Source: a virus
DNA length: 20,268 nucleotides
Virus record (IMG/VR): IMGVR_UViG_3300027971_000273
Coordinates: 1-20,268 of that record
Strand: one strand, 5' to 3'
Below the pieces are notes generated by a model. That model did no database searches. It was not told the origin of the DNA and saw nothing but the letters and a program-made list of their open reading frames with translations. Below, one piece after another: positions 48 through 18,974 of the stretch (position 1 is the first letter of the stretch; each line of letters starts with the position of its first letter). A program made the position numbers and the translations under genes.

Positions 48-2168
48 ATGGCGGTCCGATCCGATCAGAAACGCCGCACCGACGACGCCCAGGCGAAGCG
101 CGACGCCGAGCGGTACGACGACATCAAGTCCCGCACCGGCGAACGCTCTCGCCGAGTCTCAGCCGCCGGCCGCGACATCGGCCCGCCGCCGGCGATCGTC
201 GATCCGGCCCGCCGCGATTCATGCCGGCTCGACTTCCGGATGTTCTGCGAGACGTACCTTCCCGAATCGTTTCCGTTGGCGTGGTCGCCAGACCATCTCC
301 GCGCCATCTCCAAGATCGAGGCGGCGGTCCTCCGCGGCGAGCTGTTCGCCTTCGCCATGCCGCGCGGCTCCGGCAAGACGACGCTCTGTACCGCGGCCTG
401 CCTCTGGGCAATTGTCTTCGGGCATCGGCAGTTCATCGTCCTTGTCGGATCAGACCAGTCAATCGCCGAGCAGATGCTCGACAGCATCAAAAGTCACCTC
501 GAGCAGAACAACCTCCTGGCCGACGACTTCCCGCACACGGTCTACCCGGTTCGCGCTCTCGAGGGAATTAACGCCCGTGCCCGTGGTCAGACGAGCGAAG
601 GGGTGCCGACCAAGATTGAATGGACCGCGGATCAGATCACGTTCGCGGCGCTTCCTGGCTCACCGTCTTCCGGGGCGGCCGTTCGTGTCGCCGGCATCAC
701 CGGACGGATTCGTGGCCTCACGCACACCCGGCCAGACGGCAAGACCATCCGCCCCGACCTGGTGCTCGTGGACGATCCGCAGACAGACGAATCGGCGGAC
801 AGCCCGTCGCAGGTATCGAAACGTGAACGCACCCTTGACGGTGCCGTCCTCGGCCTCTGTGGCCCCGGTGTGGACATGGCCGGGCTCTGCACCGTGACGG
901 TAATCCGTGCCGACGATCTCGCCGATCGACTTCTCGATCGCCAGAGAAATCCAAAGTGGCAGGGCGAACGCACGAAGTTGGTCTACGAGTGGCCCGACAA
1001 CGAGGATCTCTGGAGCCAATACGCAGAACTGCGGCGAGAGGGGCAGCGAAGCGGCGTCGGCACTGCGGAGGCGGACGCTTTCTACAGAGACCACCGGGCG
1101 GCAATGGACGCAGGCAGCCGAGTTGCATGGCCTGAACGCAAGGCTCCGGGCGATCTATCCGCGATCCAACACGCCTGGAATCTGCGGATTGACCGGGGCG
1201 AATCGGCATTCAATGCCGAGTACCAGAACGAGCCGCTGACAGACGACATGACGACGGACAAGCTCGACCGTCGGCAGCTTGCCGACCGATCGACTGTTGT
1301 CGGCCGCGCCGTCGTTCCGCACGGACACACGAAGCTGACGGCGTTCATCGACGTGCAGAAGAATCTCCTCTACTGGATGGTCTGCTCGTGGTCTGAATCT
1401 TTCGGCGGTCAGTTGATCGCCTACGGCTCATACCCCGACCAGGGCGTGTCGTACTACGAGGCGCAGTCGGCAAAAAAGACGCTGGCTCTCGCCAAGCCTG
1501 GAGCGTCATTCGAGGCCGCTCTGTATGCCGGCCTTGAGGAAGCAACAAAGATGCTCCTCTCGCGCGAGTGGTTGCGGGAAGACGGGGTGCCGATGCGGAT
1601 CGCCCAGACGATGATTGACTCAAACTGGGGCACATCGACTGACACCGTCCGCAAGTTTTGCCGGTCGTCGCTGTTCTCCTCGACGATCCTCCCCAGCCGC
1701 GGCCGCGGTGTCGGGGCGACGAGTGCCCCGATGGGAGTGAGGCGCAATCGTGGCGACCGTGCCGGCTTGAATTGGGTGGTCGGCAAGACCGCGAGCGGCG
1801 TCCAGATCGAGTCGCAGTACGACACGAACTGGTGGAAGACGTTCGTCTCGGCCCGGCTCCGGCTCGGCCAGGGCGACCCGGAAGCGATCATGTTCCACGC
1901 CGGCTCACACGAGATGCTTATCGAGCACCTCGTCTCGGAGTTTCCGCAGCGGAAGGAAGCACGCGGCCGGATCGTTGACGAATGGAAGCTCCCGCCTGGG
2001 CAGGAAAACCATTGGTGGGACTGCCTCGTCGGATGCGCCGTCGCAGCGTCGATTTCTGGCCTCGAGGTGGCGTCGAGTGAGACGGGCACTCGAAAGCGGA
2101 AGAAGGTCAGCATCCCCACCGGCCCTGACGGCAAGCGGGTGATCGTGACCAAGCGCCACAAGGCGTAG
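48..2168 (+). CDS. Phage terminase large subunit (packaging ATPase-nuclease)
   Basis: This 706-residue protein is the motor that translocates phage DNA into the prohead through the portal and cuts it into genome lengths. The N-terminal ATPase shows a Walker A motif PRGSGKTT at residues 105-112 and a Walker B motif DLVLVDDP around 237-244. The C-terminal half looks like an RNase H-fold nuclease, with candidate metal-binding aspartates D435 (FIDVQ), D524 (MIDSNWG) and D658 (WWDCLVG). The C-terminus is basic. Length is normal for large terminases. The ATG at 48 has no strong Shine-Dalgarno, but the next in-frame Met codons would cut into the ATPase region. No small terminase subunit is visible in this window; it may lie upstream. 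Immediate downstream genes are connector and portal, as expected. The family role is confident; the exact terminase subfamily is not assigned. Confidence 0.93.
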   Translation: MAVRSDQKRRTDDAQAKRDAERYDDIKSRTGERSRRVSAAGRDIGPPPAIVDPARRDSCRLDFRMFCETYLPESFPLAWSPDHLRAISKIEAAVLRGELFAFAMPRGSGKTTLCTAACLWAIVFGHRQFIVLVGSDQSIAEQMLDSIKSHLEQNNLLADDFPHTVYPVRALEGINARARGQTSEGVPTKIEWTADQITFAALPGSPSSGAAVRVAGITGRIRGLTHTRPDGKTIRPDLVLVDDPQTDESADSPSQVSKRERTLDGAVLGLCGPGVDMAGLCTVTVIRADDLADRLLDRQRNPKWQGERTKLVYEWPDNEDLWSQYAELRREGQRSGVGTAEADAFYRDHRAAMDAGSRVAWPERKAPGDLSAIQHAWNLRIDRGESAFNAEYQNEPLTDDMTTDKLDRRQLADRSTVVGRAVVPHGHTKLTAFIDVQKNLLYWMVCSWSESFGGQLIAYGSYPDQGVSYYEAQSAKKTLALAKPGASFEAALYAGLEEATKMLLSREWLREDGVPMRIAQTMIDSNWGTSTDTVRKFCRSSLFSSTILPSRGRGVGATSAPMGVRRNRGDRAGLNWVVGKTASGVQIESQYDTNWWKTFVSARLRLGQGDPEAIMFHAGSHEMLIEHLVSEFPQRKEARGRIVDEWKLPPGQENHWWDCLVGCAVAASISGLEVASSETGTRKRKKVSIPTGPDGKRVIVTKRHKA

Positions 2169-2411: not shown

Positions 2412-4217
2412 ATGGCGAAGCGCACCGCACCGAAGGCGCGAGCGAGCCGCAAGGCACCGGCTCCCCGTGCGCCCCGGCAGGTGACGGTTGTCAAGCAGAC
2501 TGTCCGCGCCCGGTACGACGCCGCTCAGACGAGCGACGACGCTCGGCACTGGGCGAACGCCGACTCGCTGTCGGCCAACGCCGCTCTCGTGCCAGAGGTG
2601 CGGCGGATCATCCGTAATCGTGCCCGGTACGAGCGGGCCAACAACGCCTACGTCCACGGCATCTGCACCACGAAGAGCAACGACCTCATCGGCATCGGGC
2701 CGCGGGTTTTGCTCTTGACTGGCAATCCGGTGGCGGATCGTGCGATCGGCCGGGCTTGGTACGACTGGTCTTGGCACGTCCGTCTGGCCGACAAGCTCCG
2801 CGTTGCCACCGAGGCGAAGTTTTTGGACGGCGAAGCGTTCGCGCTGTTGTTCACCAATCCACGCCTCGACTCGCGCGGGGTGCAGCTCGATCTGCGGCTG
2901 ATCGAGGCCGATCAAGTCGCCTCTCCGGCCTACCAGTGGCAGCAGACCGTGTCGCCCGACGGGTCGCTCGTGGACGGAATCGAGCTTGACGTTCACGGCA
3001 ACGTGACCGCGTTCCACGTGCTCAAGACACACCCCGGCAGCAACTACCTTCTCGGCGTCAACGAGTACGACCGCATTGCCGCTCAGGACATGCTGCACTG
3101 GTTCCGCTCGACGCGGCCCGGCCAGCACCGCGGCATCTCCGAGTTGGCACCGTGCCTCCGGCTGACGGCGAACATGCGGCGCTACACGGAGGCCGTGATC
3201 CGGGCCGCCGAGATCGCCGCCGATCTCGCCGCGTTCGTCCACAGCAACTCGCCGGCCGCCCAGGTAGACGAGGTCGATCCGTTCGCCGCGATCGAGATCG
3301 AGAAGGGCACGCTGACAACGTTGCCCGAGGGGTGGGATATCTCCCAACTCAAGGCCGAACAGCCCACCAACACGCACCAAGCCTTCACGCGGACGATTCT
3401 CGGCGAGATCGCGCGGGGCGTCAATTTGCCGTACCACAAGGCGGCTTTCGACGCCTCGTCCTACAACTTCTCGTCGGCCCGCCTCGACGGCTCGCTGCAC
3501 GACCAAAACGTCCGAGTTGACCGCGACGAGCTCGAGCGATCCTGGCTCGACCGGATCTTCTCCGCGTGGCTCGACGAGGCTCTGCTCGTCCCCGGCATGA
3601 TCCCCGACGATATGCCGCCGGTGAGCGAGTGGAACTGGCAGTGGATCTGGAACGGAAACGACGGCATCGATCCGGTCAAGGAATCGAACGCCACCGAGAC
3701 GAAGCTTTCCACGCTCACCACCTCGCTCTCTGCCGAGTACGCGCGACAGGGGAAGCAATGGGACGAGGAATTGCGGCAGATCGCTGCCGAGCGGCAGTTG
3801 ATGGCAGAGCTTGGTCTGACGATCGGCAATCGGCCGTCGCAGATCGTTGTGCCGCAGTCGGACGCCGTCAACGCTACTGCCGTGCCGACCGTCACGGCCG
3901 CCGAGTCGTACCAGCCGACCGCCGAGATGCGAGCCGAGGCGGAACGTGGCCTCGCGTGGCGTCGTGAGTTCGGCCGCGGCGGCACCGAGATCGGCGTGGC
4001 CCGTGCCCGCGACATCGCCAACGGTCGGCCGCTCTCGCTCGACACCGTTCAGCGGATGGCGAGTTACTTCGCCCGGCACGAGGTGGATAAGCAGGGACAA
4101 GGCTGGAGCCAGGGCGAGGACGGCTATCCGTCCGCCGGCCGCATTGCCTGGGCGCTATGGGGCGGAGACGCCGGTCAGACGTTCGCCAACCGCATTACCG
4201 AGGGGGCCAACGCATGA
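2412..4217 (+). CDS. Portal protein, lambda gpB-type, with extra C-terminal domain
   Basis: This 601-residue protein forms the dodecameric ring at the capsid vertex through which DNA enters and leaves. Lambda-type portal features are visible: a basic N-terminus, the RYERANNAYVHGICTTKSND stretch near residue 75, DGEAFALLF, LRLIEADQV, the helix ISELAPCLRLTANMRRYTEA, and SYNFSSARL in the C-terminal half. After about residue 503 the protein continues with an extra domain: ERGLAWRREFGRGGTEIGVA, then RMASYFARHEVDKQG and GYPSAGRIAWALWGGDAG. I recall this pattern at the ends of assorted phage structural proteins but cannot name it. The ATG directly follows the connector stop, and its own stop overlaps the next start (ATGA). 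Confidence 0.92.
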   Translation: MAKRTAPKARASRKAPAPRAPRQVTVVKQTVRARYDAAQTSDDARHWANADSLSANAALVPEVRRIIRNRARYERANNAYVHGICTTKSNDLIGIGPRVLLLTGNPVADRAIGRAWYDWSWHVRLADKLRVATEAKFLDGEAFALLFTNPRLDSRGVQLDLRLIEADQVASPAYQWQQTVSPDGSLVDGIELDVHGNVTAFHVLKTHPGSNYLLGVNEYDRIAAQDMLHWFRSTRPGQHRGISELAPCLRLTANMRRYTEAVIRAAEIAADLAAFVHSNSPAAQVDEVDPFAAIEIEKGTLTTLPEGWDISQLKAEQPTNTHQAFTRTILGEIARGVNLPYHKAAFDASSYNFSSARLDGSLHDQNVRVDRDELERSWLDRIFSAWLDEALLVPGMIPDDMPPVSEWNWQWIWNGNDGIDPVKESNATETKLSTLTTSLSAEYARQGKQWDEELRQIAAERQLMAELGLTIGNRPSQIVVPQSDAVNATAVPTVTAAESYQPTAEMRAEAERGLAWRREFGRGGTEIGVARARDIANGRPLSLDTVQRMASYFARHEVDKQGQGWSQGEDGYPSAGRIAWALWGGDAGQTFANRITEGANA

Positions 4218-6097
4218 CGAATCTCTCGATCCAATCGGCAGTGCAGTTTCTACGCGCCGACGATCACGGCGGCGAGGGCGAAGGGCTTTCGACGCCGCGG
4301 ATTCCGCGGTTTTCGATGGTCGGCTACACGGGCGGCCTGATCCGCCAGGCTTGGAGCCGCGAGCCAGTCGTCATCGACCTCGCCGGCATGACCGTGCCGT
4401 CGGTGATCCCGATCGTCTTCGGCCACGACTACTCGCTCGAGGCGGTCCTCGGCCAGGGTACCGGCACCGTCGGCAACCAGCTCGTCATCGACGGCGCGAT
4501 CCTCTCCGTCTGCGACGCGGCCATGCAGGTCGTGCAGCTCGGCGACCGCGGCTACCAGTGGCAGGCGAGCGTCGGCGCTGACGTTGACGAGGACTACCTC
4601 GTAGCGTCTGGCGACACCGCACAAGTCAACGGGCAGACCTTCCAAGGTCCGGTCCGAATCGTAAAGCGCTCCACGCTGCGGGAGTGCTCGTTCGTCACTT
4701 TGGGGGCCGATGCAGCGACGGCCGTCACCATTACCGCCAACACGGCGGGGGAGTCTCCTATGTCCGCAGAGACGCAGGCCGCCGTCGACGTGATGCCGAC
4801 CGGCCCCGATGTTCAGCAGACCGACGCAATGCCAACCGGACCTTCTGACATGGCTTCGGCCGCGCCGAAGGTCGATCTCGCTTCGATTCGCGCCGAGATC
4901 GTGGCCGATGTCACCCGCGATGTGAAGGCCCAACTCCTCAAGGATCTCCGCGACGTGCGCGGCGGGCCGGCGATCCACGCCAGCAAGCCGGCCCTCGACG
5001 ACGATCAGGTCACGATCGCCGCCATGCAGGTCGTCGGCGGGCTCGGCAAGCAGATCGAAGCCAAGTACGGTGATTCGCCGATGGTCGAGGCCGCCAACAA
5101 GCGGAGTCGCACGATCGGCCTTCAGGAAGTCCTCGTCAGCGCCGCTCGCAAGGGCGGGTATGACGGTGTCCACAAGGTCACGGCGGGGAACATTGGGGTG
5201 ATTCTGCGGGCGGCTTTCGCCACCCACAACATCTCCAACATCCTCGCCGCGACGTACAACAAGTACCTCCTCAACGGCTTCGAGGCCGTCGAGTCGGTCT
5301 GGGATCAGATCTCGCTCGTTCGGCCGCTCAACGATCTGAAGGCCATCACCGGCGTTCGGCTCGACGGCGGATTCGTGTTCGACGAAGTGGCGGGCGACGG
5401 GCGTCTGAAGTCGGCGGATGCCGGCGATGCGACCCGCACGCTCCAGGCCAAGACATACGGCCGCATCTCGTCGATCTCAAGAGCCGACATCATCAACGAC
5501 GACCTCGGGGCTCTGACGGCGGTTCCCCGCCGGCTTGGCCGCGGTGCGGCGTTGAAGTTCAACTCGGTGTTCTGGACCGAGTTCCAGGTGGGTGCGACTG
5601 CCAACGCTAGCTACTACCAGGGGGCGACCGCTGGTGCGGGCAATGCGATGGCGATCGGGTCGGTCGAGACTGCTTACGCGGCGTACCGGTCGCTCAACGA
5701 TCCGGACGGCAACCCGCTCGGCATCACGCCGAGGATCCTGCTCGTCCCCGTCCAGCTCCGGATCACGGCCGACAAGATCCAAACCGGCAACACGCTCCTG
5801 GCCTCCTCGCTCGGCTCGACCTCGAGCCGCGTCGTCGAGCCCCAGGCCAACGTGCTCGCCGGGAAGTTCGTGATCGTCGATTCGGCGTACCTCACCTCGT
5901 CTACGACGTGGTGGCTGTGTGCCGATCCGAACGATCTGCCGGTCATGGAAGTCGGCTTCCTCAACGGGCAGCGGTCGCCGATCGTCGAGCAGGCGGAAGC
6001 CTCGTTCGACACCCTCGGCATCGAGGTCCGCGGGTACTTCGACTTCGGCGTTTCGAAGGCCGAGCCGCGGTCGTGCTACCGCATGGCGACATCCTGA
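4214..6097 (+). CDS. Prohead protease / major capsid protein fusion
   Basis: A 627-residue polypeptide joining a prohead protease to the major capsid protein. The protease part (about 1-175) has a candidate catalytic His in FGHDYS (H71) and Ser in ECSFVTLGAD (S159). Residues about 183-290 form a polar, acidic-basic helical scaffold-like segment including two MPTGP repeats. The rest is a capsid protein of the Mu gpT-like type, with SRADIINDDLGALT and RRLGRGAALKFNSVFW. Such fusions are a known phage arrangement. I start it at ATG 4214, which overlaps the portal stop (ATGA) and follows GAGGGGG; the longer open frame to 4157 would lie inside the portal gene. A strong internal ribosome binding site precedes in-frame Met183, see separate entries. 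A perfect hairpin follows the stop. Confidence 0.9.
   Translation: MTNLSIQSAVQFLRADDHGGEGEGLSTPRIPRFSMVGYTGGLIRQAWSREPVVIDLAGMTVPSVIPIVFGHDYSLEAVLGQGTGTVGNQLVIDGAILSVCDAAMQVVQLGDRGYQWQASVGADVDEDYLVASGDTAQVNGQTFQGPVRIVKRSTLRECSFVTLGADAATAVTITANTAGESPMSAETQAAVDVMPTGPDVQQTDAMPTGPSDMASAAPKVDLASIRAEIVADVTRDVKAQLLKDLRDVRGGPAIHASKPALDDDQVTIAAMQVVGGLGKQIEAKYGDSPMVEAANKRSRTIGLQEVLVSAARKGGYDGVHKVTAGNIGVILRAAFATHNISNILAATYNKYLLNGFEAVESVWDQISLVRPLNDLKAITGVRLDGGFVFDEVAGDGRLKSADAGDATRTLQAKTYGRISSISRADIINDDLGALTAVPRRLGRGAALKFNSVFWTEFQVGATANASYYQGATAGAGNAMAIGSVETAYAAYRSLNDPDGNPLGITPRILLVPVQLRITADKIQTGNTLLASSLGSTSSRVVEPQANVLAGKFVIVDSAYLTSSTTWWLCADPNDLPVMEVGFLNGQRSPIVEQAEASFDTLGIEVRGYFDFGVSKAEPRSCYRMATS
4747..4762 (+). 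promoter_or_regulatory. Internal ribosome binding site and in-frame ATG for scaffold-capsid product
   Basis: GGGGGAG at 4747-4753 is followed six bases later by ATG at 4760-4762. This ATG is in frame with the fusion gene (codon 183, exactly after the protease domain). Initiation here would give a 445-residue scaffold-capsid protein beginning MSAETQAAVDVM without the protease. The layout parallels lambda, where scaffold Nu3 starts inside protease gene C in the same frame. That the site is used is inference. Confidence 0.6.
4760..6097 (+). CDS. Nested scaffold-major capsid product (alternative start)
   Basis: This is the predicted second product of the fusion gene, 445 residues, started at the internal ATG 4760 with a strong upstream GGGGGAG. 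It would contain the scaffold-like segment and the whole capsid domain but no protease. A shell needs hundreds of capsid subunits and only a few protease copies, so an independent start would fix the ratio. The protein sequence across this start switches from the protease end (AVTITANTAGES) to a low-complexity linker, consistent with a domain boundary. It is supported by the Shine-Dalgarno and frame only; proteomics of virions would be needed to confirm it. Confidence 0.5.
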   Translation: MSAETQAAVDVMPTGPDVQQTDAMPTGPSDMASAAPKVDLASIRAEIVADVTRDVKAQLLKDLRDVRGGPAIHASKPALDDDQVTIAAMQVVGGLGKQIEAKYGDSPMVEAANKRSRTIGLQEVLVSAARKGGYDGVHKVTAGNIGVILRAAFATHNISNILAATYNKYLLNGFEAVESVWDQISLVRPLNDLKAITGVRLDGGFVFDEVAGDGRLKSADAGDATRTLQAKTYGRISSISRADIINDDLGALTAVPRRLGRGAALKFNSVFWTEFQVGATANASYYQGATAGAGNAMAIGSVETAYAAYRSLNDPDGNPLGITPRILLVPVQLRITADKIQTGNTLLASSLGSTSSRVVEPQANVLAGKFVIVDSAYLTSSTTWWLCADPNDLPVMEVGFLNGQRSPIVEQAEASFDTLGIEVRGYFDFGVSKAEPRSCYRMATS

Positions 6098-6191: not shown

Positions 6192-6551
6192 ATGGCAACG
6201 CTCAAGCAAAACATCGGTGACAGTTGGGACTATACGCCGTCCACCGCGAAGGCGGTTGGCGACGTGGTGATCCTCGGGAAGGTGGTCGGTGTCGTCTCGC
6301 GGCCGATCGCCGCCAACGCCAAGGGCTCGATCAACGTCCGCGGCATCTTCACGTTCGACAAGGTGACCGGCGGCGCTCTCACCGCCGGCTCTGTGGGGTA
6401 TCTGCACTCCAACCTCAAGGTCACGGGCTCCGCGACGACGACCGGCATCGCCGGGCTCGTGGCTGTCGATGCGGCCGCCGGTGACACGACGGTCGATGTG
6501 TCGATCAACCACGGCATGCTCTACGACCTGAACTCCACCGGCCCCGCCTGA
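6192..6551 (+). CDS. Capsid decoration (cement) protein, DUF2190-like
   Basis: A 119-residue, beta-rich, small-residue protein with the pattern of the DUF2190 capsid cement family: an N-terminal MATLKQNIGDSWDY, then AVGDVVILGKVVGVV, NVRGIFTFDKVTG, AGSVGYLHSNLKVT, and a closing TTVDVSINH strand. These proteins, like lambda gpD, bind the outside of the expanded shell and stabilise it. It lies directly after the major capsid gene, the expected place. GAGG at 6181-6184 precedes the ATG by seven bases. It is the only gene in the window flanked on both sides by strong hairpins, which hints at separate control of its mRNA level or stability. Confidence 0.78.
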   Translation: MATLKQNIGDSWDYTPSTAKAVGDVVILGKVVGVVSRPIAANAKGSINVRGIFTFDKVTGGALTAGSVGYLHSNLKVTGSATTTGIAGLVAVDAAAGDTTVDVSINHGMLYDLNSTGPA

Positions 6552-6625: not shown

Positions 6626-7051
6626 ATGGCCGACATGCTCTCCGCCGGTGCCGCGTGGCTCGCCGACCAGTTCGCGGCGTCGGCGTCGCTCACCGTGGCA
6701 TACAAGCGGGGCGTGAACTCGTCGCAGTTCGTCGCCACGATCGGGAAGAGCATGTTTGAATCGAGCGGTCAGAACGGTGTCACAGAGCAATGGGAAAGCC
6801 GCGACTACATCGTCAAGACGGCCGATTTGCCGTACGGCGAGCCGCTGCGTGGTGACCTGATCGTCGAGGACATAGGCGGAGTGTCGGTGTTCTACGAAGT
6901 GACCGCACCTCGAGGCGTGCCGCTGTTTCACTACGGCGATGCCTTCCAGCAGCTCGTCCGCGTCCACACCAAGCGGACGGACAAGGATCAGACCTACATC
7001 ATCACCGACCAGGGCGAAGAGATCGTCGTGCCGCTCACCGCTCAAGGCTGA
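6626..7051 (+). CDS. Probable head-tail joining (head closure) protein
   Basis: A 141-residue protein following the decoration gene, the position of lambda FII-type head-tail attachment proteins. Visible features are an N-terminal amphipathic helix (MADMLSAGAAWLADQFAASA), then short beta strands: LTVAYKRG, FVATIGKSMFE, VTEQWESRDYIVKTADLP, GEPLRGDLIVEDIGG and VSVFYEVTAPRG, ending in a strand with RVHTKRT. The alternation of strands and the RGD-x-I/V turn resemble small neck proteins I recall from similar phages, in which the joiner caps the connector and receives the tail. GAGGTG precedes the ATG. The assignment rests on position and general pattern rather than a diagnostic motif. Confidence 0.5.
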   Translation: MADMLSAGAAWLADQFAASASLTVAYKRGVNSSQFVATIGKSMFESSGQNGVTEQWESRDYIVKTADLPYGEPLRGDLIVEDIGGVSVFYEVTAPRGVPLFHYGDAFQQLVRVHTKRTDKDQTYIITDQGEEIVVPLTAQG

Positions 7052-7055
7052 CATC

Positions 7056-7616
7056 ATGCCGCTTTTCAAGCGCGTCGATCAACTGCCAGCGGCGACCGGC
7101 GTTACCGGCACCGACTATCTGATTCTCTCGCGGCCTTCAGGCCCGACGGGGACGGTCGGCACGCGGGCTGTCAGGCTCTCGCAGATCCTCGCCCTCGCTA
7201 CGGGCGGTAGCGGCAGCGTTGGTGCTACCGGTCCCACGGGCAGCCCCGGAGCCGCGTCTACGATTACCGGGCCGACGGGCGTGGCGGGCAGCAACGGGGC
7301 GGCAGGAAGCAACGGCAGTGCCGGGGCCACGGGGCCGACGGGCGCGCCTGGGGCGGCGGGCAGCAACGGCAGCGCCGGGGCGGCTGGGGCAACCGGCCCC
7401 ACGGGCAGTCCGGGGGCGGCCGGCAGCAACGGTGCGGCGTCCACGGTTACCGGCCCGACCGGAGCGGCGGGGGCGGCTGGCACGAACGGCACGAACGGCA
7501 GCAACGGCGCGGCGGGGGCCACCGGCGCGACCGGCCCCACGGGCATCGTCTTTTCGTACGGCACGGCCTACCCGACGGGCGGGAATGCGGGCGACCTTTA
7601 CCTACGTCATTCGTGA
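7056..7616 (+). CDS. Collagen-like Gly-X-Y repeat fibre protein
   Basis: A 186-residue protein made of a short N-terminal head (MPLFKRVDQLPAATGVTG ... SQILALATGG), about 36 Gly-X-Y triplets (residues roughly 50-165) and a short tail ending AGDLYLRHS. The triplets are rich in GPT, GSN, GAA and GAT, and are broken twice by the four-residue insertions STIT and STVT. Collagen-like repeats form trimeric rods in phage fibres. GPT-rich collagen of Bacillus BclA is O-glycosylated on Thr, so the glycosyltransferase genes nearby are suggestive. I chose ATG 7056, four bases after the preceding stop; the open frame reaches further back but only inside the previous gene. The ribosome binding site is weak. 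Confidence 0.85.
   Translation: MPLFKRVDQLPAATGVTGTDYLILSRPSGPTGTVGTRAVRLSQILALATGGSGSVGATGPTGSPGAASTITGPTGVAGSNGAAGSNGSAGATGPTGAPGAAGSNGSAGAAGATGPTGSPGAAGSNGAASTVTGPTGAAGAAGTNGTNGSNGAAGATGATGPTGIVFSYGTAYPTGGNAGDLYLRHS
7200..7551 (+). repeat. GC-rich tandem repeat encoding Gly-X-Y triplets
   Basis: Degenerate 9-base-periodic repeats dominated by GGC/GGG, AGCAACGG and CCSACGGGC words encode the collagen-like segment. A larger unit (GATGPTG-S/A-PGAA followed by SNG or ST-I/V-TGPTG) recurs about three times. Such repeats typically change copy number by slippage or recombination, so fibre length may vary between relatives. Confidence 0.8.
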
Positions 7617-10496: not shown

Positions 10497-11134
10497 CCGG
10501 GTATATCCGTTTGGATCTACCAAACCGCTCGCACGACGAATACGAGCGGCTCGGCCGGCAGCTCGTCGGCGCTGCCGAGGCCGGCGGGCACCTCGTCAAC
10601 GTCTTCGGCGGCACGGTCGAGGACTGCTGGCACTACCATCTATCCGCCGGGGCAGAACTGCCGCTCGGGAATCCGGGCAAGGACTCGCGGGAGTTCCTTG
10701 CCGTGCAGCATCAGAAAACCGCCTGGGTGGCGGACGCCGCGACGATCACCGACGCCGACGTGCTCGTGTGGATGGACTACGGCCTGTTGCACGTGCCGGG
10801 GATTACGGCCGGCATGGTGCCGGCGTTCCTTGAGCGGGCCGCCGCGTCGGCCCCGCGGGACCGGGTCGGGATGGCATCGATCTGGGGGCCACCCCGGCGG
10901 ATTCCCGACTGGCGGTCGGTCGAGTGGTGGTGTGCCGGCGGCGTGTTCACGGTGCCGCGGTCGATGGCTTTTGCGTGGCACGACGCTGTCGTCGATCGGG
11001 CGACGGCGATCCGGGCGGCCGGGCACGTGACGTGGGAAGTCAACACGTGGGCGACCGCCTGGGCGAGGTGCAGCAACGTCGTCCGGCCGTGGATCTGTGA
11101 CCACAACGAGACGATCTTGGAGGCTGGGCCGTGA
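10469..11134 (+). CDS. Glycosyltransferase-like protein, resembling HtrL/YibB
   Basis: A 221-residue protein with features I associate with the HtrL/YibB-like group of putative glycosyltransferases: an N-terminal strand LVTGYIRLD (8-16), a polar region ending in WMDYGLLHV (101-109) that may hold the D-x-G sugar-nucleotide site, then EWWCAGGVFTVPRSM and TWEVNTWATAW near the C-terminus. I choose ATG 10469 because GAGGAGG ends four bases upstream; the longer open frame lies inside the preceding propeller gene. It overlaps that gene by 28 bases and shares GTGA with the next start. Neighbours are all sugar-related, which supports the role. The sequence similarity is loose, so the family call is tentative. 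Confidence 0.55.
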   Translation: MRAARACLVTGYIRLDLPNRSHDEYERLGRQLVGAAEAGGHLVNVFGGTVEDCWHYHLSAGAELPLGNPGKDSREFLAVQHQKTAWVADAATITDADVLVWMDYGLLHVPGITAGMVPAFLERAAASAPRDRVGMASIWGPPRRIPDWRSVEWWCAGGVFTVPRSMAFAWHDAVVDRATAIRAAGHVTWEVNTWATAWARCSNVVRPWICDHNETILEAGP

Positions 11135-11817
11135 ACGACTACGTCGTCATCATCCCCACAAGGAACCGCTACCGGCTCTGCCTGCGAGCGATCCGGTCGG
11201 CGCTGACGCAGACCGTCCCGCCGGCGGAAGTCTTTGTGGTGGACGACGGCTCGGACGACCCGCGGTATCAGTGGCTTGAGGAGATCGTCGGCAGTCCGCG
11301 GTTGACGGTCCTCCGGCGAACCGTCTCAAGCCGGGACGAAACCGGGGCGGGCTTCGCGGTCGGAACCGTGCGAAACGAAGCCATCCGGCACGTGCTCAAG
11401 ATCGGATTCAGCGGCTGGGTAGCGTTCCTCGACGACGACGACGAATGGCTGAAGACCAAGGCGGCGGTCCAGTTCGCGGCCGTCGGATCAAACGGCCGGT
11501 ACGGCGTTCTCTGTTCCAACGCCTTCAACCGCAACCCGGAAGGTGTGGTGAGCGGCTATCACCACGAAACGCAGGGCGTGCAGATCACCGACACCACCCG
11601 CGACGTGACCGCGATCTGCCGGGCCATGAATCCGGTCATCAACTCGACGGCGATGATCCACACGAAGATCGTCGAGCGGTTGGGCGATCAGCAAGCGGTC
11701 GGCTTCGGTGAGGACTGGGACTACTGGCAGCGGGCTGGCCGGCTCACCGGGATCATGCGGGTGGAAGAGCCGCTGGCGTGGTACACGGTGGGCAACCCGA
11801 AGGAATACACGCTATGA
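11131..11817 (+). CDS. Family 2 glycosyltransferase
   Basis: A 228-residue GT-A fold glycosyltransferase of family 2. It shows the N-terminal VVIIPTRNRYRLCLRAI, the nucleotide-binding VVDDGSDD (36-43), and the acidic metal-binding run FLDDDDEW (D101-D104). A late GEDWDYWQR matches the E-D-x-D region that in this family often carries the catalytic base. Such enzymes transfer a sugar from a nucleotide donor to an acceptor in the cytoplasm. The start is GTG 11131, in an overlap (GTGA) with the previous stop, with GGAGG at 11119-11123. The stop overlaps the next ATG (ATGA). It lacks membrane segments, so the acceptor is probably a soluble protein or sugar. Donor and acceptor cannot be read from sequence. 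Confidence 0.9.
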   Translation: MNDYVVIIPTRNRYRLCLRAIRSALTQTVPPAEVFVVDDGSDDPRYQWLEEIVGSPRLTVLRRTVSSRDETGAGFAVGTVRNEAIRHVLKIGFSGWVAFLDDDDEWLKTKAAVQFAAVGSNGRYGVLCSNAFNRNPEGVVSGYHHETQGVQITDTTRDVTAICRAMNPVINSTAMIHTKIVERLGDQQAVGFGEDWDYWQRAGRLTGIMRVEEPLAWYTVGNPKEYTL

Positions 11818-12848
11818 GGATCGGCGTTTACGCTCTCGCCAAGAACGAAGCCAAGCACGCGGCAGCGTGGGCCGCGGCGACTGCCGATGCCGATGTCCGC
11901 GTGGTCACCGATACTGGCTCGACCGACGGCACCGTCGAGCTGCTCCAGTCGGCCGGCGTGACCGTGGCTAGGTCGTACGTCGTCCCGTGGCGGTGGGATG
12001 TCGCCTGGACGCAGGCGCTCTGCAATCTGCCGCCGGATCTCGATGTCGCCTTCCGGGTCGATCTCGACGAGCGGCCCCAGCCCGGCTGGCGATCGGCGAT
12101 CGAGGCGGCGTGGGACGGCACAGCGAATAACCTCGTCTACGACTACTGGTGGAGCCTGGACGACGCCGGCCGTCCGCTGCTGCGGTTCCACTGCGATCGG
12201 GTCCACTCCCGGTCGGGCTTCTTATGGCGGCAGGCAACGCACGAAGGGCTCGTCTGCTGGGCCGGGGAGAAGGTGCAGCGGAAGTGCGACGGCCTGGTCG
12301 TGGAGCACCACCGCGACAAGGGCAAGGCCCACAAGACCGACCTCGATCTGCTGAAGGTCGCGGTCAACGAGTCGCCAACCGACGCACGGGCTCGGTGGTA
12401 CTACGCCCGCGAACTGGACTACGCGGGCATCCCGACCGCGGCGGGTGAGTTCGCCGGCTACCTGAAAATGCCTGGCGGATCGCCGACGGAGCGTGCTTAC
12501 GCGCTTCGCCGGCTGGCGTCGATCACCGGCGACGGGGCGTACCTCGAGCGGGCTGCGAAGGAATCACCGGGAGAGCCCGACGGCTGGGAACGGCTGGCGC
12601 TGGCCGCTCACCACGGCGAGGACTGGCCGAAGTCGCTTGAGTTTGCCGAGCGGGCGATTGCCTCGCCGGTGAGTACTCACGCCACCGACCCGCTGGCGAA
12701 GGCCAGGGCGGCAGAACTGGCGTCGATTGCTTTATGGCACCTCGGCCGCACGGCGGACGCCCTGACGCATGCCAGGGCCGCGGCGGCACAATTGCATTGG
12801 GACGAGCGGATCGTCGGCAACGCAGCGGCAATGGAGGCGAGTCTATGA
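11814..12848 (+). CDS. Glycosyltransferase with C-terminal TPR-like repeats
   Basis: A 344-residue two-part protein. The N-terminal half resembles family 2 glycosyltransferases: YALAKNEAKHAAAW (7-20), VTDTGSTDGTVELL (31-44), and an acidic RVDLDERP (81-88) in the position of the D-x-D metal site. A central W-x-x-H-x-x-EH region (FLWRQATHEG, LVVEHHRDKGK) probably binds the acceptor. From about 205 to 330 the sequence is helical and Ala-rich with TPR-like spacing (ARWYYARELDYAG, DGWERLALAAHHG, ALWHLGRTADALTHARAA). Proteins with this GT plus TPR layout are typical of bacterial glycosylation loci. ATG 11814 overlaps the previous stop. The stop overlaps the next start at 12845, so the cassette is translationally coupled into the tail genes. 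Confidence 0.85.
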   Translation: MRIGVYALAKNEAKHAAAWAAATADADVRVVTDTGSTDGTVELLQSAGVTVARSYVVPWRWDVAWTQALCNLPPDLDVAFRVDLDERPQPGWRSAIEAAWDGTANNLVYDYWWSLDDAGRPLLRFHCDRVHSRSGFLWRQATHEGLVCWAGEKVQRKCDGLVVEHHRDKGKAHKTDLDLLKVAVNESPTDARARWYYARELDYAGIPTAAGEFAGYLKMPGGSPTERAYALRRLASITGDGAYLERAAKESPGEPDGWERLALAAHHGEDWPKSLEFAERAIASPVSTHATDPLAKARAAELASIALWHLGRTADALTHARAAAAQLHWDERIVGNAAAMEASL

Positions 12849-17265: not shown

Positions 17266-18195
17266 ATGGCTCTGACATGGATCGAAGACAGCAGCTCAAG
17301 GTCGTCAACGATCTTCCGTCTCGGACGGAAGGACGCGAGCACCCGCACCCGCGTCTTCAACGTCTTCGGCACCACGAACGAAGACACTCTGCACGCCGCT
17401 GCCAACGTGGCAATCTCGACGAGTTACCCATATTGGCAGTACCCCGGCCAGCCGACCGTGAAGCTGCGGGCGGAGTCCTACGGCGTCGAGTACCAGGGCG
17501 ACGATTCGTGGAAAGTCACGATCAATTACGAGAAGATCGGTGCCGACGATGCCACGCAGACGGCACCACTCAAGCGGGCGAGATCGTTCGACACGTCGGG
17601 CGGGACGCAGCACATCACCAACGCCTTGCAGGTGAAGAACTCCTTCGGTGCGGTGACCGACACCGGCGAGAAGGTCTACGGTCCTTCCGGGCTCGACGAC
17701 GGCGCGACCATGAAGGGGGCGATCAACGTCGATGACAACGGCGTCAACGGCGTGGACATCGTCGTCCCGTCGTTCCAGTTCCAAGAGTCCTACGACGTGC
17801 CGCTGTCGGTCCTGACCGACGCCTACATCCGGAAGCTCGGAGAACTGACCGGCACGGTCAACAACGCAGCCTTCCGCGGGTTCAAGGCCGGCGAGGTGCT
17901 GTTCGTCGGGGCCAGCGGGTCGCACGAATGGGACGAGCAGCGCGGCAACGGGCCGGGGGCGATCACGTTCAAGTTCGTGGCTTCACCGAGTGCCGGCGAC
18001 GGTAAGACGCTGCTGCCGCTCAAGGTCGGCGACATCAACAACATCGCCAAGGGCGGGCACGAATACCTCTGGGTGCGGTACGCCACCGTCGCTGACACGG
18101 CGAAAAATCAGATCACGAGGCAGCCGATCGCTGTATACGTCAATCGCGTCTACCAGGATGGCGACTTCTCCCAGCTCAAGATCGGCGTCGCATGA
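17266..18195 (+). CDS. Predicted tail structural protein, distal-tail type
   Basis: A 309-residue protein beginning MALTWIEDSSSRSSTIFRLG. It is beta-rich with no recognised motif. Visible blocks are FGTTNEDTLHAAANVAIS, YWQYPGQPTVKLRAESYGVE, WKVTINYEKIG, a segment with SFDTSGGTQHITNAL, and a strand pair FVGASGSHEWDEQ ... AITFKFVASPS towards the C-terminus. The gene follows the tape measure, where siphoviruses encode distal tail and baseplate hub proteins. The start is ATG 17266 after GAGGTGG, nine bases past the tape measure stop. Its stop overlaps the next start (ATGA). I recall related proteins from similar phage neighbourhoods but cannot assign a fold; a distal tail or hub role is inference from position. 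Confidence 0.6.
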   Translation: MALTWIEDSSSRSSTIFRLGRKDASTRTRVFNVFGTTNEDTLHAAANVAISTSYPYWQYPGQPTVKLRAESYGVEYQGDDSWKVTINYEKIGADDATQTAPLKRARSFDTSGGTQHITNALQVKNSFGAVTDTGEKVYGPSGLDDGATMKGAINVDDNGVNGVDIVVPSFQFQESYDVPLSVLTDAYIRKLGELTGTVNNAAFRGFKAGEVLFVGASGSHEWDEQRGNGPGAITFKFVASPSAGDGKTLLPLKVGDINNIAKGGHEYLWVRYATVADTAKNQITRQPIAVYVNRVYQDGDFSQLKIGVA

Positions 18196-18974
18196 GCGAA
18201 AAGGGCAGGCCAGGACGCATCGAGAAGGGACCGATCCGCGGGCAGATCAGTGCCCGCGCGTGGAACCGTGCGCAGGACGCCGCTGACAAGGTGCTAGGCC
18301 AGGGCGCTGACGGAGTGGCAGATGGTCCGTCGGCCGGGCCGCCGCCATACACGCCGATCCTTGCGAAGAACAACACGACCGGCACCGTCAACCGCTGGGG
18401 CGTCCTCTCCGTCGCCGGCGTCGTATTCACGCCGAGCGGTGCGACCGGCAACGCTACGCAGCAGTTTCAGGATCAGCCGGTGCTGAGCGGCGGCTTGCCG
18501 ACTGGCGGCTCGGCGTTCGTCGTGGCGGTCGAGCCGATCGCGGCCGGGAAGATCGGCAGAGTGGCGGTGGCTGGGGTGGTGCAGGCGAAGATCAACGTCG
18601 TCTCGGAGTCCGACACGTTCGCCACGGCGAAGGACGGCGACCTAACGCAGCTCACCAGCAGCTCGAACGGGGAAGCCACGATCCTTTGGAAGGAAAGCGG
18701 CACCGGGGCGAACAAGTGGGCGATCGTGCGGTTCGGGGCGGCGGGGGCTTCAATCCGGCTTGGCAAGGTTACGGGCACGTGGTCGAAGGGCAGCACGACA
18801 ACGGTGACTCAGTGGAAGGGCGACGGCTCCGCGGCAGTCAGCGGGCCGAGCGGGCCGGCGACGTTCACGGCGATCAACCGCGCACAGACGGTGACGGGGC
18901 CGACCGGAGGATTCTGGGTCGGATGCGAGAGCATCGACGGGACTTGGCACCTTGAATGGGCGGAGTGCAACTGA
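18192..18974 (+). CDS. Predicted tail-tip or fibre-associated structural protein
   Basis: A 260-residue protein starting at ATG 18192, overlapping the previous stop. It has a basic N-terminus (MSEKGRPGRIEKGPIRGQIS), a helix ISARAWNRAQDAADKVLG, a Pro-rich hinge (GPSAGPPPYTPI), and then a long beta-rich part with repeated V-A-V/G-x-V-x strands (GRVAVAGVVQAKINVV) and Gly-Ser-Thr-rich turns, ending with a Trp-containing strand GFWVGCESIDGTWHLEWAEC. The W-N-R-A-Q-D-A-A-D helix looks like a protein-protein anchor. The order after tape measure and distal tail fits an appendage. No enzymatic motif is seen. Its stop overlaps the next start (TGATG). Confidence 0.6.
   Translation: MSEKGRPGRIEKGPIRGQISARAWNRAQDAADKVLGQGADGVADGPSAGPPPYTPILAKNNTTGTVNRWGVLSVAGVVFTPSGATGNATQQFQDQPVLSGGLPTGGSAFVVAVEPIAAGKIGRVAVAGVVQAKINVVSESDTFATAKDGDLTQLTSSSNGEATILWKESGTGANKWAIVRFGAAGASIRLGKVTGTWSKGSTTTVTQWKGDGSAAVSGPSGPATFTAINRAQTVTGPTGGFWVGCESIDGTWHLEWAECN

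Follow-up and report, generated by a model that had tools for sequence, protein, structure and literature searches.

The analyzed window, by which we mean the whole 20,268-base virus record, contains a head gene cluster encoding terminase, a portal protein, a protease-scaffold-capsid fusion, a capsid decoration protein and a head-tail joining protein (Table 1). The lambda-family portal has an extra C-terminal domain (residues 501-595, positions 3912-4214) that matches phrog_2859, a family of unknown function, and an open reading frame just 3' of the head genes (6939-7616) encodes long collagen-like Gly-Pro-Thr and Gly-Ala-Ala repeats.

Table 1. Features of the head gene cluster and of the protease-scaffold-capsid fusion gene (SD, Shine-Dalgarno sequence; MCP, major capsid protein).
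Feature	Position	Strand	Evidence and remarks
Terminase	48-2168		Head cluster; open reading frame list and profile matches
Portal protein gene	2412..4217	+	PF05136, E=2.8e-56; open reading frame; overlaps fusion start (ATGA)
SD of primary start, GAGGGGG	4200..4206	+	Duplex -10.9 kcal/mol; family mean -10.4
Full-length protease-scaffold-MCP fusion	4214..6097	+	627 aa, 66.0 kDa; phrog_4523, E=4.6e-52
Prohead protease domain, residues 31-174	4304..4735	+	phrog_3244, head maturation protease; folded with high confidence; candidate catalytic H71, S119, E157
Codons 167-181, 15-codon window with fewest synonymous changes in gene	4712..4756	+	Observed 27, expected 74.3, ratio 0.36; ends at SD
Variable linker, probably disordered, residues 176-222	4739..4879	+	pLDDT < 50; length and sequence differ among relatives
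Internal SD, GGGGGAG	4747..4753	+	Duplex -8.6 kcal/mol; codons 178-180
Internal in-frame ATG, codon 183	4760..4762	+	Kept in 57/57 at fixed distance from SD
Predicted nested CDS, protease-free scaffold-MCP	4760..6097	+	Open in frame to common stop; 445 aa, 47.0 kDa
Helical stretch, residues 222-316	4877..5161	+	Helices in model, modest confidence
HK97-fold MCP, residues 327-625	5192..6088	+	PF25209, E=2.5e-36; Foldseek matches
Capsid decoration (cement) protein	6192..6551	+	PF09956, E=1.2e-13
Head-tail joining protein	6626-7051		PF25138

The fusion gene joins a prohead protease and an HK97-fold MCP in a single open reading frame, as seen from profile matches, the structure model and Foldseek. 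Since phrog_4523 ("major head and protease protein") matches the whole protein, fusions of this sort are already known; in the profile search, the match to the head maturation protease family covers residues 62-173 and that to the PF25209 capsid family covers residues 335-623. The structure model was built from a 48-sequence alignment of fusions; the 16 sequences of a close-family alignment gave a poor model (pLDDT 44.9), which was not used. The model is confident for the protease (31-174), whose last folded strand stops at residue 174, and for the capsid domain (about 340-625), which resembles the capsid proteins of HK97 and other phages by structure (Foldseek, E about 1e-8); it is weak over the helical residues 222-316 and of low confidence at residues 176-222. 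H71, S119, and E157 are invariant in 49 fusions, most of which share just 17-25% identity with the window protein; they provide the conserved His/Ser/acidic residues of an S78/HK97-type prohead protease and constitute the candidate active site. The helical stretch is likely an HK97 delta-like scaffold domain, as judged from the model. A sequence search of the PDB found no fusion: the capsid part retrieved Mu gpT-like capsids only, and the protease part of the mEp460 fusion retrieved ClpP only.

A preliminary description of this DNA had proposed that a second, in-frame start at the end of the protease domain yields a capsid protein free of the protease. The proposed signal is present as described, with GGGGGAG at 4747-4753 followed, after a six-base spacer, by the ATG at 4760, which is codon 183 if the conserved start at 4214 is taken as codon 1. 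Its placement exactly at the end of the domain holds to within about eight residues of the last protease strand. The part upstream of the internal ATG accounts for 19.0 kDa, and the frame downstream of it stays open to 6097 and includes the whole MCP, in agreement with the proposed content of the nested product. The ATG at 4760 has the strongest SD among the 19 ATG codons in any frame within the fusion gene, and among the 29 in-frame ATG, GTG, and TTG codons its SD ranks second, behind the true start only. The host of the window virus probably uses SDs, since many other window genes carry them. When synonymous codons were resampled with the peptide held fixed, an SD as strong as that of 4760 arose 9% of the time, and the window's own site shows average mRNA folding (z about 0), in contrast to the mean of the group given below. 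Taken alone, the internal SD of this single sequence is thus modest evidence, and the case for the internal start is built on conservation and on comparison across families.

Close relatives were represented by 56 IMG/VR loci with 59-97% identity, which were codon-aligned with the window sequence to give a set of 57. The ATG and the GAG codon that forms the SD core are present in 57/57, the codons ahead of GAG are always GCG and then GGG or GAG, and the spacing between SD and ATG is identical in all 56 sequences for which it was measured. On a substitution tree of the 50 unique sequences, with 3.8 substitutions per site, codons 178-180 have undergone no third-position (synonymous) change, against 15.9 expected. 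Within these codons, Gly179 has been exchanged with Glu at least five times, switching the motif between GGGGGAG and GGAGGAG; because the third base stays G, the SD is kept through the exchange. The gene therefore has a conserved in-frame internal start signal with an SD after its protease domain, as nested-start genes do, and selection acts on this signal at the nucleotide level.

The same signal was found at the junction of most remote fusions, an extension across many families that the preliminary description had not noticed. The conservation of SD and Met, whose absence would by that description have refuted its proposal, supports it both within and beyond the close family. The junction also carries an in-frame ATG with an SD in each of six further fusions from known phages (mEp460, Shewanella 1/44, Stenotrophomonas S1, Pseudomonas MD8, Bordetella PBb001, and Vibrio 1.049). 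IMG/VR homologues of five of these six were anchored at the protease end and clustered at 60% identity, which gave 56 representatives (40 S78-type, 14 ClpP-type, and two window-type) that span two unrelated protease folds. To count as positive, a representative needed an in-frame ATG 20-60 codons past the protease end whose SD pairing was -5 kcal/mol or better. In this junction bin, 47 of the 56 representatives (84%) are positive, versus 4-20% in other 40-codon in-frame bins of the same genes and 0-23% in out-of-frame bins; clustering at 70% and 90% identity gives 84% and 89%, respectively. Nine representatives lack an ATG with SD in the tested bin. Two of them have GTG with a strong SD (L307 and L358), one has a strong SD and ATG slightly outside the bin (offset 68), and in the remaining ones the same place holds an ATG whose SD is weak or absent; these rescues are post hoc and are excluded from the 84%.

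A Met codon occurs in the junction bin of 54/56 representatives versus 60% of other bins, and mRNA folding is relaxed at the junction ATG (mean z +1.19, n=51) in comparison with 205 other sites with ATG and SD (mean z -0.07; Mann-Whitney p=7e-12). In the 47 positive junctions, the internal Met is followed mainly by P, D, A, T, S or K, and these second residues look like those of protein N-termini. In the ClpP-type family, the ATG is kept in 124/124 unique sequences, and no other five-codon window inside the gene varies less at synonymous sites than that of the SD codons (KRMQE), the lower windows lying upstream of the gene start; for the very divergent S78 set, the synonymous-site scan is saturated (tree length 39). 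Synonymous-change deficit, bin comparison and codon resampling together led us to reject chance as the source of the internal SD.

Phages lambda (C/Nu3) and Mu (I/Z) are known to nest an in-frame start behind a protease domain, in both cases for a scaffold product, and served as positive controls together with Gifsy-2. The same scan recovered the Z start annotated at codon 179 of Mu gene I (AACAGGAGA), an in-frame ATG at codon 309 of lambda gene C with a very strong SD (TCAGGAGGG), and a site at codon 221 of the Gifsy-2 gene (TTGAGGAGT). The lambda record annotates the Nu3 start at codon 239 of gene C, which has no SD; the gpNu3 product of ~13 kDa fits a start at codon 309. Mu likewise has an in-frame internal ATG with an AGGAG SD just past the protease domain and an annotated nested product consisting of the protease-free C-terminal part. 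The Mu product, however, ends with the scaffold, and its capsid protein T is encoded by a separate gene. Lambda also nests a scaffold gene in frame within a protease gene, but its protease is of the S49 type, and capsid protein E and decoration protein D are encoded separately. Neither scheme of a scaffold-only nested product with a separate MCP applies to the window, where the nested frame includes the MCP. The tripartite genes of Gifsy-2, MD8, and mEp460 combine protease, scaffold and MCP in one gene, as here, and have an internal ATG with SD at the junction, but their protease is of the ClpP type, whereas that of the window fusion is S78-like. HK97 gp4/gp5 share with the window a similar type of prohead protease and an HK97-fold MCP with an N-terminal helical region; in HK97 these are separate genes, gene 5 directly following gene 4 (PMC8508860).

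Fused protease-capsid genes pose a stoichiometry problem, as a shell needs hundreds of subunits and far fewer proteases, and a conserved internal start, if used, would be a simple answer to it. We consider it highly probable that the window gene works from two in-frame starts, giving a 66-kDa fusion and a 47-kDa protease-free scaffold-MCP that assemble together. In this scheme, initiation at 4214 would produce the protease-scaffold-capsid protein, and initiation at the internal SD and ATG 4760 would produce a scaffold-capsid protein without the protease. The long and short forms would co-assemble into the procapsid with only some subunits bearing the protease, so that capsid protein would not be tied one-to-one to protease, and the protease would later remove the linker/scaffold region, as in HK97. 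From the sequence and by analogy with Mu I/Z and lambda C/Nu3, we infer that translation does begin at the internal start, that procapsids take up both products, and that the arrangement serves to make capsid protein in excess over protease; the nested product would supply most of the capsid.

The sequence gives no sign that the nested product is in excess, since in the window family the primary SD is as strong as the internal one or stronger (mean -10.4 vs -8.7 kcal/mol). This fits a different division of labor, in which both starts are active, the internal one contributing little, and the bulk of the capsid protein derives from the full-length fusion through self-cleavage by the protease at the junction. 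The intact protease residues and the unstructured linker, a junction open to protease cutting, are in line with it, as are published accounts in which Gifsy-2-type genes are reported as single composite capsid genes (the title of Effantin 2010, as cited in PMC8538268; the MD8 paper, PMC8508860). Predominant self-cleavage nevertheless does not account for the synonymous selection on the SD or for its presence across families, unless the minor product matters, and we regard it as unlikely.

It is far less plausible that the junction is conserved as protein, such as a linker or cleavage site, with the SD look-alike arising as a by-product of Glu and Gly codons. The 9% frequency of an equally strong SD under a fixed window peptide is compatible with such a by-product, and peptide-preserving codon resampling of the 56 representatives shows how far the peptides alone can go, with 30.9±2.9 passing. 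The 47 observed positives nonetheless exceed every one of the 200 trials (maximum 39), which indicates selection on the nucleotide sequence in addition to that on the protein. Moreover, the base pattern in the window family is kept while Gly/Glu exchange is tolerated, and the positive junctions share a common GAGGA-like motif at -12 to -8 and the ATG but little else, their peptides having little in common across families except Met. The deficit of synonymous changes (0 vs 15.9) and the excess of positive representatives (47 vs 30.9±2.9) led us to reject protein-only conservation. Least probable of all, and likewise rejected, is that the signal is left over from a capsid gene that once stood by itself and lost the stop ahead of it. 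Related systems with protease and MCP in separate genes do exist, such as Vibrio phage K268 and Paenibacillus phage Rani (their MCPs are not assigned to the same family, and the boundary comparison is not counted as evidence), but a leftover signal would decay, whereas this one has persisted through 3.8 substitutions per site in the window family and between families that are about 20% identical.

Single genes for protease, scaffold and MCP are already known from Gifsy-2 and MD8, and the MD8 paper treats such a three-in-one gene; a search of that paper for the term "internal" gave no match (PMC8508860). Our literature search found no report of an internal start yielding a protease-free capsid protein in such fusions; Gifsy-2 capsid work lay outside the search, and an earlier report there is possible. 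Relative to lambda C/Nu3 and Mu I/Z, the apparent new element is the extension of the nested-gene logic to the shell protein itself, probably general to protease-capsid fusions. We lean toward the broader view that ClpP- and S78-type fusions are dual-start genes in general, each fusion being retained together with an internal start for protease-free capsid protein; in that case the annotated capsid protein of many phages would be the minor long form and the real precursor would begin at an internal Met that annotations lack. Capsid-precursor N-termini would then have to be re-annotated in many phages.

Elsewhere in the window, two glycosyltransferase-like genes are located amid structural genes (11131-12848), one of which (11778-12848) matches the beta-1,4-glycosyltransferase family phrog_13126 (E=1.6e-59). 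Far from the head cluster, the region 18192-18974 has a weak match to the head decoration family phrog_122 (E=0.0015) and encodes a possible second decoration-like protein.
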